A DNA stretch of 44,138 bases from IMG/VR virus record IMGVR_UViG_3300022751_000021, positions 1 to 44,138 of that record. One strand, 5' to 3'. Source of the stretch: a virus. A program made the translations under genes and the position numbers. Under the pieces are notes generated by a model. The model searched no databases. It worked only from the letters and a program-made list of their open reading frames with translations, and was not told the DNA's origin. Below are positions 3,601-27,223 of the stretch, piece by piece (the stretch's first letter is position 1; each line of letters starts with the position of its first letter).

Positions 3601-4113
3601 ACATCGTAATTTAAACCGCCGTTGCCACTCCGGCAACCATCCGAATGAGAAAGCCGCTGAGCATTGCTGCTGGGTGGCTGAGTGTTGGTGGTGGCCGGTG
3701 CTGAACCCGGCATTCTGGCTATTTGCCGACGTACTTTCAGTCGGTCCCAAGTTTCCGATTTACCAGCGACCGGCCATTACGGCTGCGCATCAGCACTGCG
3801 CACTCACCATCACAGAATCAACCTCCAGTTCCCTGCGCGGCGGCCGACCGGGCGAGGGAAGCGGTTCTGCAACGTTGCCAGCATCCCGATTTCTCGTGCT
3901 GGGCGTGACCGCCTCTTACTGGGACCTTGCGGGTGAGAGGCATTGGTCTACGCGCTGCCATTCCCTGGAGGTGGTCTCTGTCATGGCCCTCGTTCCAGAG
4001 TCGGCTTTCCCCGAACTACTCGGCCCCGGATCGGGCCGGGGCAGTGGATGAGGCGTTGGCCTTTGCGCTTCAATGGCGCCAGCGTCTCTTCGGGGTCGCG
4101 CTGTGGTGGGCGC
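3601..4113 (-). other. Untranslated late leader region
   Basis: About 510 bases between the late promoter and the HNH gene with no convincing coding sequence on either strand; the open frames on the plus strand lack family signatures. On the minus strand a GC hairpin lies at 4023-4042 (GCCCCGG/CCGGGGC, six-base loop), about 65-85 bases after the likely transcription start. It has no U tract, so if it is the tR'-like terminator it is unusual. A leader of this kind, with a pause and an early terminator, is where lambda-type Q proteins act. Confidence 0.5.
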
Positions 4114-4142
4114 ACCATATCAGAAATGGACCAATCTGTCAC
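4114..4142 (-). promoter_or_regulatory. Candidate late promoter (PR'-like)
   Basis: On the minus strand a -35 GTGACA (4137-4142), a 17-base spacer and a -10 TATGGT (4114-4119) lie 27 bases past the stop of the Q-like gene, reading into the long leader and the late genes. The position matches the lambda arrangement Q gene, then late promoter, then leader. Match is 5/6 at -35 and 4/6 at -10. Confidence 0.65.
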
Positions 4143-4168
4143 CGTTTCCCCGATAGACACCGGCATGG

Positions 4169-4894
4169 TCACGCTGTCGACTTCGCCTGATGGCGCCACT
4201 TCGTCTCCTTGAGGTGGCGCTTGGCGTCGCTCATGCAGTGCCCCATGTACCCCAGCACCTTCCTGCCGAGGAAGCCGTGAGGGATCTTGGCTTCACCCGT
4301 GCCGCGGCAGGTCGAGCAATCCCGGCTTGAGGTCCGGCCGGTGCCCTCCACCACGCGCTTCTGCACGCCCTTGCACGACGTGCACTTCGGCGACAGCCAC
4401 CAGGTCAGCACGGCAGCCACCACGTGGGGCGCGGCCTCGATGCCTTCGGCCAGTGCCCAGCGATCCAGGGCACCGCGGACCATGGGAAGCGACTTCAGTC
4501 GCTGCAACAGGGCACGCTGCTCGGTCTCGAACCACGCCTCTGCCTGCCGCTGCGCGGCCGCCAGCGGCGTGACCTGCTCGGTCTTCAGGTCGTCCTGGCC
4601 AGCGTCGATGGTCGGCACGGTGACCAGGCCGTTGGGCTCGCGCGCGTAGGTGCCGGCCAGCGCGCGCAGCTGGTCGAGCGTCGGCGCCGCGGGCTTGGCG
4701 CTGCTGTCCCACTCCGTGCGCAGGCGCAGCAGGGCCAGGCCTAACCGGTGCGGGCTCAGGCCGGCGGCGATGATCACCTGCACGGCGCCGTTTCGGTCCC
4801 ACTCGTGGCGCAGGTTGGATGAACCGACCGCAGTGGAGTAGCTCTCTTCGATGGTCGGGGGGGCGTTCTGGTCTTCGTCGTTCGTCATGAGCAT
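4169..4894 (-). CDS. Q-like late antitermination protein
   Basis: A 241 aa protein whose C-terminal third carries two zinc-knuckle pairs, CTSCKG and CSTCRGTGE, spaced by about 18 residues, followed by a G-K-GYMGHCMSDAKRHL helix. Lambda Q has the same C-x2-C-x-G / C-x2-C-x-G-x-G organisation followed by a similar helix. It is the last gene of the leftward early operon and directly precedes a promoter and untranslated leader, exactly where Q genes lie. Q proteins load on RNA polymerase paused near the late promoter and let it read through terminators. AAGGAGG lies 4 bases before the ATG at 4894; a second ATG at 4888 is possible. Function is inferred from motif plus position. Confidence 0.75.
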   Translation of the reverse strand: MLMTNDEDQNAPPTIEESYSTAVGSSNLRHEWDRNGAVQVIIAAGLSPHRLGLALLRLRTEWDSSAKPAAPTLDQLRALAGTYAREPNGLVTVPTIDAGQDDLKTEQVTPLAAAQRQAEAWFETEQRALLQRLKSLPMVRGALDRWALAEGIEAAPHVVAAVLTWWLSPKCTSCKGVQKRVVEGTGRTSSRDCSTCRGTGEAKIPHGFLGRKVLGYMGHCMSDAKRHLKETKWRHQAKSTA

Positions 4895-4916
4895 GGTTCC
4901 TCCTTGGGGTAGTCGA

Positions 4917-5381
4917 TCAGCCGTACACCTTGACGCTCGGGTGAGCGGCGCGGATCCGGTTCATGGTGGTTTGAATGGCGCGCTCCAGCGTGGCCAGGTC
5001 AATGGCGGTGCGCTGGAGGTGGTGGTATTCGACGAGGTCCTGCATCGCCTGCAGGCCGTCCGGCGTGGTCTCGATGCAGTTCGTCCGGAGGAAGCCTTGA
5101 TGCGCGGCGCCGAGGTGCTGCTCGACGCTGGACAGGACCGGCGACACCTCATCGCGGCCGACGCCCATGCCTGCCAGGGTCTCGGCCAGGTTCACGACGT
5201 CGGCGATGGTGCGCCAGTGCTTCTGCGTGGCGGTGCCGGTGCGGAAGGCGTCGAGGGCTTCATGCTCTGCGGCCAGCAGCAGTTGCGCCTTGCGGTCGTC
5301 GATGGGCCGGACGCCTTCGATGACGAACGCGATCGCGGGCGTGGTCGCCTGGTAGTGCTTGCGGCGCGTGCGTTTTCTCAT
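4917..5381 (-). CDS. Conserved phage protein of unknown function
   Basis: A 154 aa mostly helical protein with a basic N terminus (MRKRTRRKHYQ) and no membrane segment. The start at 5381 has GGGAGG 8 bases upstream and overlaps the stop of the preceding 57-codon gene by four bases (ATGA). It precedes the Q-like gene by 22 bases. The basic start could contact nucleic acid, but no family is recognised with certainty. Confidence 0.8.
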   Translation of the reverse strand: MRKRTRRKHYQATTPAIAFVIEGVRPIDDRKAQLLLAAEHEALDAFRTGTATQKHWRTIADVVNLAETLAGMGVGRDEVSPVLSSVEQHLGAAHQGFLRTNCIETTPDGLQAMQDLVEYHHLQRTAIDLATLERAIQTTMNRIRAAHPSVKVYG

Positions 5382-24824: not shown

Positions 24825-25130
24825 TCAGCGGCGCGGCGCTCTACTGCCCGACAGCGAGTAGTCGACCGGAGATCCGCTCGCAGGTGCTGCCGGCCGCCCG
24901 AAGCTGGTCAGCGTATCCACCGACGATTTCCGCTCGGCGGTCAGCGCGCTCAAGCATGTCGGCAAACATTCCGATGGCGTCGGAACTAGGCTCACCCGTG
25001 CCTCGGGCGGCAACGCTGGCGATGTATCGGGCTTGGTCGGTGGCGGTGCGGATAGCGAGCCGCATGCGCTCACGATCATCGCGAGCAGCGGCGCGCTCAG
25101 CCTCCAATGCCGCAAGTTGTTTCTGACCAT
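24825..25130 (-). CDS. Rz1: o-spanin Rz1-like lipoprotein, embedded in Rz
   Basis: A 101 aa frame lying in another reading frame within the Rz gene and running 16 bases past its end. The N terminus (LRHWRLSAPLLAMIVSAC) is a lipoprotein signal with lipobox VSAC; the mature part starts CGSLSAPPPTKPDTSPALPP, the proline-rich linker of Rz1 proteins. With Rz it would bridge inner and outer membranes and fuse them at the end of lysis. ATG at 25130. Nested spanin layout matches lambda and its relatives. Confidence 0.82.
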   Translation of the reverse strand: MVRNNLRHWRLSAPLLAMIVSACGSLSAPPPTKPDTSPALPPEARVSLVPTPSECLPTCLSALTAERKSSVDTLTSFGRPAAPASGSPVDYSLSGSRAPRR

Positions 25131-25347
25131 CGAGGGCCTCCTGATTGACGATGTCTTGACGGGCCGCGTTGCGCTGCTCGCGCGCGCGGTCGGCGAGGAT
25201 GCGCTGCTCCTGCTGCGCGATGCGTTCGGCGTCCCAGTCGGCGCGCACTGCGGCGCGGCCGGCCTTATAGACGAAGGCGCCGGCCAGGGCCAGCACGGCG
25301 GCCAGCGCCAGCGCGATCCAGACTTTCGGGTTAAGCAGCAGCGCCAT
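24841..25347 (-). CDS. Rz: i-spanin Rz-like protein (DUF2514)
   Basis: A 168 aa protein with an N-terminal transmembrane helix (about 8-26) followed by a long periplasmic coiled coil (AERIAQQEQRILADRAREQR, EALDGQKQLAALEAERAAAR) and a C-terminal segment CERISGRLLAVG. This is the DUF2514-type spanin of Burkholderia and Pseudomonas phages. It sits directly after the endolysin/zinc-protein genes and carries Rz1 inside. Inner-membrane component of outer-membrane disruption. Confidence 0.88.
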   Translation of the reverse strand: MALLLNPKVWIALALAAVLALAGAFVYKAGRAAVRADWDAERIAQQEQRILADRAREQRNAARQDIVNQEALDGQKQLAALEAERAAARDDRERMRLAIRTATDQARYIASVAARGTGEPSSDAIGMFADMLERADRRAEIVGGYADQLRAAGSTCERISGRLLAVGQ

Positions 25348-25531
25348 GGTTGCCCTCCGTGAGCCGCAAGGGCGTGCACACCGCGCAGACGGTGCGGTAC
25401 ATGCGCCCCTGGAAGATGTGCAGGCAGCGCTCGCACACGTTGCGCACGCAGGGCCCGGTGCCGATGTCCTGCACGTAGTCGCGGGGCAGCGCGGCGGCGC
25501 GGGCCTCGTCGCGGGCGAGGTCGCCGGTCAT
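25331..25531 (-). CDS. Small cysteine-rich protein in lysis cassette
   Basis: A 66 aa protein with CVRNVCERC and CAVC knuckles, a possible zinc site, and no signal peptide. ATG overlaps the endolysin stop; the end overlaps the Rz start by 17 bases. Not a known lysis component; it may be a regulator or a remnant. Confidence 0.6.
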   Translation of the reverse strand: MTGDLARDEARAAALPRDYVQDIGTGPCVRNVCERCLHIFQGRMYRTVCAVCTPLRLTEGNHGAAA

Positions 25532-26109
25532 GACAGCCCCAGCGCCGTGCGAGCCGCTGCGTAAATGCGCACCCTGTCGACCCAGCCGTTACTGTCGCCC
25601 TCGGCCACCGTCTTGCGGCCTCGGTTGATCATGTCGCAGTAGCCGTCGAAGTCGCCCTTGTCTGCCCAACCGTTCAGGCCACGCATGTCGGCATAGTCGG
25701 CGGCCGAAAGGCATGCCCACTGCGGCTCCGCCAGGCGCACCGGATCGGCCTCGAAGTCGGGAACGTCGATCTTCGAGAACCGCGCACGCAGCCGGTCGCG
25801 TGCAGCCGCATGGTTCGCGCGGCCAGTTGTCTGGATGAGGCCATGGCCGCGGAACTTGGAGCCATCGCCCGGCTGGGTGTTGCCGAGGTCAGCCCTGCCC
25901 TCGTAGCGCGCCTGCGCTGGCGTCGGGTCCCAGAGCTCGGTCGTGTACCGCAGGCCGCCCGACTCGTGGCCGACGTTCGCAAGAAACATGGCCTGCCGGA
26001 TAGGGGTGTCGATTCCGTAGAAGGCCATGGCGGCGGACAGCGGCTGGGCGAACCGGCGCGCATTGGCCAGTGTGGCGCCCGTGCAGAGCGCGAGTACTTC
26101 GGGTGTCAT
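25528..26109 (-). CDS. GH19-family endolysin
   Basis: A 193 aa chitinase-like (glycoside hydrolase 19) muramidase that cuts the peptidoglycan sugar backbone. The catalytic Glu is in NVGHESGGL (E49), a second acidic residue in YTTELWDPTP (E58), then RYEGRADLGN, and the substrate groove motif FRGHGLIQTTGRANH. No signal peptide, so it needs the holin. ATG at 26109 overlaps the holin stop (ATGA). Confidence 0.92.
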   Translation of the reverse strand: MTPEVLALCTGATLANARRFAQPLSAAMAFYGIDTPIRQAMFLANVGHESGGLRYTTELWDPTPAQARYEGRADLGNTQPGDGSKFRGHGLIQTTGRANHAAARDRLRARFSKIDVPDFEADPVRLAEPQWACLSAADYADMRGLNGWADKGDFDGYCDMINRGRKTVAEGDSNGWVDRVRIYAAARTALGLS

Positions 26110-26555
26110 GTGGCTGGCCCTCCAGCTGCAGCCGCGCTCGAGAGCTTGTCCGCAACGAACTTGTTGTACATGAGTTCCAGCGACTTCGCGCCGCCGAAGC
26201 TGACCATCGGAACGAAGAAGCCGATCATCAGACCGGGCATGTCGAAGTGCGACGCCATGAAGAACGCGCAGATGCCGGCCAGCCACGAACCGCACATGTG
26301 CGCACCTACCAGAAGTGGCAGGTTGCGGATCGGCTTCATGGGCTTGTCGTCGCCGCCGGCGTTCACCTGGTTGCTGATGCGGAACAGCAGCGCAGTGACG
26401 CCGGCCAGCGTCATCAACACGCCCAGCAGCAGCGATTCGCGCAGCGTGATCTGCGCCAGCGCCTCGTCGAAAGATAGCGTGGCCGCACGGACCACCGGCA
26501 CCCAGCAGCACAGCACGAGGATCTTCAGGCGGATAAGGATTCGGGCTGGGCTCAC
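26106..26555 (-). CDS. Putative holin
   Basis: A 149 aa protein with an N-terminal hydrophobic segment (about 5-23), a second at about 44-62, and two more at about 79-98 and 104-124 (GAHMCGSWLAGICAFFMA, GLMIGFFVPMVSFGGA), then a polar C terminus. It lies immediately before the endolysin. The GTG at 26555 overlaps the previous stop (GTGA). The layout is compatible with LydA-type holins. Holin role is inferred from position and topology. Confidence 0.75.
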   Translation of the reverse strand: MSPARILIRLKILVLCCWVPVVRAATLSFDEALAQITLRESLLLGVLMTLAGVTALLFRISNQVNAGGDDKPMKPIRNLPLLVGAHMCGSWLAGICAFFMASHFDMPGLMIGFFVPMVSFGGAKSLELMYNKFVADKLSSAAAAGGPAT

Positions 26556-27223
26556 TTCGTTACCTCTTCGTTCGTGCCGTCGCAAGATTCAGCACAGCCC
26601 GTCAGCTCTCGAAACTTCATTGACTCAAACTGCCCGCTCGTTGTGAAAGGTAGCGTCGCCCCGATCGGTGCGTAGATTCGCCCTTCAAATCGCACGGTTT
26701 GACTCTGCGCATGCATAAGCTGCCCGGCCGCGTACAGGATCGGTGGGTAATAGCCGCCGCACTCCATTGCGCGCCGGAGCGCGTCAGCAGCGCCCGCTAC
26801 AAACGCCGCAGCATCCTCGCGCCTAGTCCGCCAGTAGTGGCTATACACACCCAAGCACGCCACCAGCGACGCCACGCAGGCATCAAGCAGGTAGCGCGCC
26901 ATCACGGGCCGTATGTCGTCGCTGCGCGCCTCAACGAACGCGAGCGCGACCTGGCCGATGGCCATCGCCATGAAGACGAGGTGGCGGTGCCGGTGTGTGC
27001 ATCGCAATGAGTAGCGAGGCGGCAGCCAGTCGTTGATGAGCACGTCGAACAGCCCGGCTAGCGCGGTGAACGCCAGCAGGCCGATGGCGACGGCACCGCC
27101 GTAGCCGTCTTGGTCCATGATCCCGCGGTGCTGGCTCCACGGGTCGAGCATGGCGATGCAGGCGGTGACCAGCACCGAGCCGGACACGTAGAAGCGGGTG
27201 AGCCAGGAGAAATGAGTTTTCAT
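26552..27223 (-). CDS. Membrane protein carrying a tail-spike N-terminal segment
   Basis: A 223 aa protein. Residues 1-130 hold four likely transmembrane helices (about 11-26, 43-66, 82-97, 112-128). Residues 157-209 (GYYPPILYAAG, QTVRF, IYAP, LPFTTSGQFES-KFR) align with residues 89-141 of the tail spike encoded just upstream, with 29 of 53 identical positions. So it is a membrane domain fused to a spike-type module. The lysis position suggests a holin partner or antiholin, but the spike module has no place in known lysis proteins. ATG at 27223. Confidence 0.75.
   Translation of the reverse strand: MKTHFSWLTRFYVSGSVLVTACIAMLDPWSQHRGIMDQDGYGGAVAIGLLAFTALAGLFDVLINDWLPPRYSLRCTHRHRHLVFMAMAIGQVALAFVEARSDDIRPVMARYLLDACVASLVACLGVYSHYWRTRREDAAAFVAGAADALRRAMECGGYYPPILYAAGQLMHAQSQTVRFEGRIYAPIGATLPFTTSGQFESMKFRELTGCAESCDGTNEEVTK

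Follow-up and report, generated by a model that had tools for sequence, protein, structure and literature searches.

A described counterpart of the locus examined here is found in the Variovorax phage VarioGold, whose lysis module runs from VG_p19 to VG_p24 and comprises a spike, a four-TM protein, a holin, a lysozyme and spanins (PMC9658991). For Achromobacter phage phiAxp-2, the published report states that no lysin or holin gene was found (PMC5037462). An uncharacterised protein of this phage, A0A0K2FH83, is the third-ranked BFVD match of the membrane protein that is our subject (here called P0001); it resembles the membrane part of P0001 in fold (TM 0.76 by target length) but, at 138 aa, has no room for the spike segment described below. 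A 138-codon gene situated after the virion genes of phiAxp-2 (L100, 38850-39266) fits the length of A0A0K2FH83, their identity being putative. Closer in sequence is Variovorax sp. UMC13, which carries P0001 homologs at two places (68% identity over residues 1-134, and 57% over 1-148). Like P0001, the UMC13 prophage protein (L023/L026) has a four-helix domain over residues 1-134 and stands directly before the same holin-like gene, with a stop/start overlap.

The stretch of DNA that we analysed, referred to as the window, is a virus record of 44,138 bases. Its late genes lie on the minus strand in the order J-like tail tip protein, spike, P0001, holin-like protein, endolysin and Rz-like spanin (Table 1). 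Since VarioGold shares this gene order from the spike onwards and is also the nearest named phage by tail tip protein, a Variovorax-like host is likely. VG_p20 differs from P0001 in that it is unrelated by BLASTP and has no spike segment. The spike gene ends 135 bp upstream of the P0001 gene, and the P0001 stop codon is overlapped by the GTG start of the holin-like gene (gTGAg). The holin-like protein has three TM segments predicted by hydropathy, and its gene is 83% identical to its counterpart in L023.

Table 1. Features of the spike-lysis region, with positions in the window
Feature	Position	Strand	Basis
J-like tail tip protein		minus	phrog_469, E = 4e-195
Tail spike/fibre, 718 aa	27359-29515	minus	phrog_17635 tail fiber protein, E = 1.7e-7, residues 5-168
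Spike residues 1-45, probable virion-docking part, absent from P0001	29381-29515	minus	Inferred
Spike residues 89-141, connector domain common to spike and P0001	29093-29251	minus	Sequence match
P0001, membrane protein with spike segment	26552-27223	minus	ORF, 223 aa from ATG
P0001 residues 1-134, membrane domain of four helices (phrog_20672 family)	26822-27223	minus	PHROGs, hydropathy, AlphaFold2
P0001 residues 135-223, added C-terminal segment, predicted cytosolic	26555-26821	minus	DNA alignment gap against L023, homolog C-tails, GC3
P0001 residues 157-209, spike connector core (GY...PFTTSG.FE..KFR)	26597-26755	minus	Spike identity, leave-one-out HMM
Holin-like gene, 149 aa, GTG start	26106-26555	minus	Weak phrog_31412, phrog_6384 and phrog_785 matches, E = 9.3e-5 to 0.014
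Endolysin, chitinase-like by PHROGs	25528-26109	minus	phrog_181 endolysin, E = 6.8e-47; phrog_14712 chitinase; start inferred from overlap with holin-like stop
Rz-like i-spanin	24841-25347	minus	phrog_312, E = 9.7e-24; PF10721 DUF2514

A preliminary description of this DNA had claimed that residues 157-209 of P0001 share 29 of 53 positions with residues 89-141 of the adjacent spike, including a PFTTSG-FE--KFR core. Both the identity and the core are present as described. Comparison of the two proteins by single-pair BLASTP gave 30 identities over 57 positions (E = 1e-16), with the significant alignment restricted to residues 157-213 of P0001, and by Smith-Waterman the score was 160, whereas 500 shuffles of the protein reached no more than 57. 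By leave-one-out HMM the segment scored 77.6 bits, within the range of the 23 spike rows (62-121) and below 21 of them. On these alignments, the fusion of a spike segment to P0001 looks real. By BLASTP against the spike, P0001 is without spike residues 1-45; nor does an enzymatic or receptor-binding body follow the connector, as P0001 stops 14 residues past the 53-residue match.

We searched viral-contig DNA for PFTTSGxFE and recovered 8 + 15 stretches. Twenty-one of these 23 lie inside spike-like ORFs, some of them cut by the ends of the stretches, and in all 21 the connector is followed by more protein or by the stretch end; the other two are chance ORFs of 31-34 aa. None of the 23 motif places has PFTTSGxFE at the end of a membrane protein. 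Chance motif matches (L049, L056) and repeats (L064, L067, L028, L029, L030, L041) were dropped before the segment was counted. Among 20 spike rows the connector occurs behind six N-terminal groups and ahead of 13 C-terminal groups, where members of different groups have no mutual BLASTP match at 1e-3 (N-terminal clusters by single linkage, with composition correction off). Such diversity of partners indicates a mobile connector that links docking heads to enzyme bodies and is set behind several apparently unrelated spike N-termini. Its consensus among spikes, which include VarioGold VG_p19 and the window's own spike, is GY.PPV.Y.AG...QTV.Y.G..YAP....LPFTTSG.FE..KFRLIQG. The P0001 segment resembles these connectors over 53 residues and in having a helix ahead, and is unlike them in forming the C-terminus of a membrane protein. 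One contig (IMGVR_UViG_3300028584_000048) yielded a near-identical spike N-terminus and connector twice (L058, 9640-9666; L059, 189-215); the two stretches differ by one residue over the compared part, and possibly represent two spike genes in one phage.

With spikes in L003, L004, L005, L007, L009 and L016, the window spike has in common only a stretch from residue 1 to about residue 43-60, and these spikes show no segment match at E ≤ 1. Because these related spikes share the N-terminus without the connector, virion docking is probably located in spike residues 1-45 and not in the segment. The segment had been labelled as anchoring, a designation that is not borne out, the likelier docking part being the one absent from P0001. 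Profile PF18668, which we take to be Tail_spike_N, gave no match for 14 segment rows at E ≤ 1. The segment has no useful match in Pfam and nothing better than E = 0.88 among PDB sequences, and the spike model has a weak BFVD match (E = 2.4) to an Aeromonas phage PS1 protein annotated as TSP1/Gp66 N-terminal domain-containing.

Preceding the segment, the four-helix membrane domain claimed for P0001 appears in the hydropathy profile as four predicted segments (8-26, 45-63, 81-99 and 107-125). The positive loops of P0001 lie on the N-in/C-in side according to the positive-inside rule, and four predicted segments with such loop charges are present in all seven phrog_20672-family proteins examined, P0001 included. 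With this topology the added segment is predicted to face the cytosol, the compartment in which spikes are synthesised. The idea of a spike module on the inner membrane thus stands in part: the module does derive from a spike, and the protein that bears it, encoded beside the lysis genes, is predicted to lie in the inner membrane, with the cytosolic face as the predicted placement of the module. Residues 11-113 match phrog_20672 (PHROGs, E = 9.9e-10), a known but uncharacterised phage family with a 139-position model, and the same profile is matched by all five homologs scanned. Helix 4 is followed by 10-25 residues in the six homologs in which helices were placed; P0001 is without this short tail and has 89 extra residues past residue 134. 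We read P0001 as a phrog_20672 member with an added domain.

Once repeats were removed, we retained 24 homologs of the membrane part: viral contigs supplied 14, and the other 10 came from a search of genomes of the genus (101) and the family (399). The spike segment is present in none of the 24. The viral contigs contain 17 loci, in which the segment has no match at E ≤ 0.01; these add only 14 because L083, L084 and L093 repeat L032, L036 and L042. L043 and L048, near-identical places in one genome, were counted as two; L037, L047 and L081, whose membrane matches are weak, were excluded from the count. In L045 (1460-2403, genome G401) the membrane and holin-like genes read as one ORF, probably through a frameshift; it was counted as a segment-free homolog and left out of alignments. 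Outside UMC13, the genus and family genomes hold more distant homologs of P0001. Normally terminated homologs have 110-158 aa and a short tail, and these C-tails vary in both length and sequence. The membrane gene of the phrog_20672 family is found just 5' of the holin-like gene, usually with a stop/start overlap: in nine of the 10 homologs from genomes, the gene abuts the following one or overlaps it (judged by stop context and listed ORFs), and the next ORF matches the holin of the P0001 phage in at least nine of the 17 viral-contig loci, a lower bound because the ORF taken was the longest, and at four or more loci its frame was incorrect. It is because of gene order alone that we call P0001 antiholin-like, its membrane part being probably a holin partner or antiholin. 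Given 24 homologs without the segment, the role of the membrane protein in the lysis cassette cannot in general depend on it.

The closest homolog, L023, is a 141-aa Variovorax prophage protein that is colinear with P0001 over 134 residues, lacks the segment and then runs straight into the holin stop/start overlap. Its DNA can be aligned on either side of the segment, up to the gTGAg overlap and the GGAGGT/GAGGT box. Given its absence from the homologs and the alignable flanks, the segment is most simply explained as an in-frame addition after helix 4 in the P0001 lineage; its loss from all other homologs is conceivable in principle, although far less parsimonious. No second instance of the fusion was found in viral contigs with P0001 as query, in genome and viral contigs by membrane alignment, in the 101 genus and 399 family genomes, or in phage records. 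The sole segment-only matches in the genus and family genomes (G067 and G076) are both in spikes, and a three-row segment alignment found no match in 369 class genomes, an uninformative outcome as this search had no positive control. The fusion of membrane part and spike segment is represented by one instance in one IMG/VR record. A fusion of another kind occurs in the homolog L094 (~4001-5170, IMGVR_UViG_3300031413_000595), where a phrog_20672-like protein is cut after helix 3 and then reads through in frame into an ORF unrelated to it, giving a total of 388 aa; this is a second C-terminal fusion of such a protein, with a partner that is not a spike domain. Taken with the variable C-tails of the homologs, this run-on suggests that the C-terminal end of the family is open to fusion.

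The AlphaFold2 model of P0001 (mean pLDDT 82.5; ~61-82 over the segment) has helices at residues 7-26, 41-66, 80-100 and 106-154, the last of which runs unbroken from helix 4 into the added part, and then a short beta unit. The spike model shows a like arrangement, with a stalk helix (41-87) ahead of strands whose positions correspond: P0001 strands 177-179 and 182-186 pair with spike strands 109-111 and 114-118, an offset of 68 that is also that of the sequence alignment, although the agreement is not independent, as the P0001 alignment held spike rows and the pLDDT of the spike model is 42-64 there. In BFVD, P0001 is matched best by free-standing phage proteins 136-141 residues long, in line with the segment being an extra. 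Against PDB folds P0001 matches generic helical proteins, the best with E = 0.4.

A recent duplication of the neighbouring spike was considered and rejected: over 57 codons, DNA identity is 93/171 and only 19 of 57 third positions agree. Of 30 shared residues, 12 use the same codon. The segment is about equally distant from many spikes, with identity reaching its maximum, 30/53, in each of L055, L057 and L063, compared with 29/53 for its own spike; no sampled spike exceeds 57%. The tree does not single out a donor, and a grouping of the segment with its own spike finds neither support nor rejection in it (p-AU 0.25). The segment branch carries 2.86 changes per column over 77 columns, and within the 53-column core its terminal branch carries 1.6-1.8 changes per column versus a median of 0.27-0.39 (4-6 times). 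Despite this divergence, 23 of 24 core columns conserved among spikes are kept in P0001, the sole change being I for V. Residues private to P0001 number 11 in the 29 variable columns and zero in the 24 conserved ones (P = 0.0005, or 0.003 without the eight search-motif columns, both by Fisher's exact test), whereas spikes have on average 2.85 residues unique to one row and a maximum of six (n = 20); these column counts were made without L053 and L025, which are divergent, and L058, a near repeat of L059. After KFR the identity to spikes is lost (median 0.28 versus 0.39-0.72 among spikes). GC3 drops at the join, from 0.87 in the membrane part to 0.65 in the segment, and is 0.84 in the holin gene. 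Two histories would fit these values: either a divergent spike outside our sample donated the segment recently, or the fold has been retained in its new place; with one sequence only, recent capture and selection in place are not separable.

On balance, we lean towards the explanation that P0001 is a lysis-cassette membrane protein bearing a captured spike domain that is tolerated and mainly a passenger. P0001 would be made together with the downstream holin-like protein and, in the role of antiholin or holin partner, would most likely modulate it. A piece of a spike gene, encoding the connector domain and part of the helical stalk, probably entered by illegitimate recombination close to where the spike and lysis genes meet, coming to lie in frame between helix 4 and the holin ribosome-binding site; it would be tolerated because the C-tail of the phrog_20672 family varies freely. 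The domain would then be mainly a folded passenger with no dedicated function, its tendency to pack or trimerise at most shifting the oligomer state of the membrane protein. Besides the segment-free homologs, the lower GC3 of the segment, the loss of spike identity after KFR and the long terminal branch favour this view. The retention of the core columns counts against a passenger, as the domain does not look like one in decay.

That retention, alongside divergence of the variable columns, would fit a domain that serves as a cytosolic oligomerisation unit and determines how the antiholin-like protein assembles, and hence the time of lysis, without need of the spike. Helix 106-154 joins the domain as the stalk helix does in the spike, to judge from the models, which is consistent with such a role. 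However, the 24 homologs manage without the domain, its C-terminal edge is eroded, and a single instance does not allow selection in place to be told from recent capture; we regard this alternative as possible but doubtful.

It is unlikely that the domain binds the spike, through mixed trimers or as the spike's partner, and thereby acts as a membrane tether or decoy or couples lysis to spike supply, the roles put forward in the preliminary description. P0001 and the spike have this domain in common, their genes are adjacent on one strand and probably share one late transcript, and both products would be cytosolic before assembly. Yet the probable docking part of the spike is missing from P0001, and neither residue identity, which is no higher with the window's own spike than with L055, L057 or L063, nor third codon positions give a sign of co-evolution with the neighbouring spike. 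That the connector trimerises on the cytosolic face, alone or with nascent spikes, and gates the holin so that lysis senses spike assembly strikes us as quite improbable. A chimeric insertion introduced during assembly of one metagenomic contig, which the occurrence of the fusion in a single record might suggest, is the least probable explanation, as both joins are in frame without a stop, the holin gene has kept its GAGGT ribosome-binding site and its gTGAg overlap, and the piece came from no sampled genome.

The best-documented cases of domain mosaicism in phages concern receptor-binding proteins, endolysins and polymerases (PMC10684548). Here a spike module appears to have crossed into a membrane protein of the lysis cassette, and our search of open-access literature, by title and the start of the abstract, found neither such a fusion nor a spike-to-lysis link. 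Were the domain functional, virion assembly would be linked to lysis timing; if it is not, P0001 would be a clean example of a mobile spike module landing in a neighbouring gene and surviving by virtue of the recipient's tolerant tail.

At the far end of the lysis cassette, a frame overlapping the Rz gene (window 24825-25127) encodes a lipobox-like LSAPLLAMIVSACGS followed by a proline-rich part, and presumably represents an embedded Rz1.
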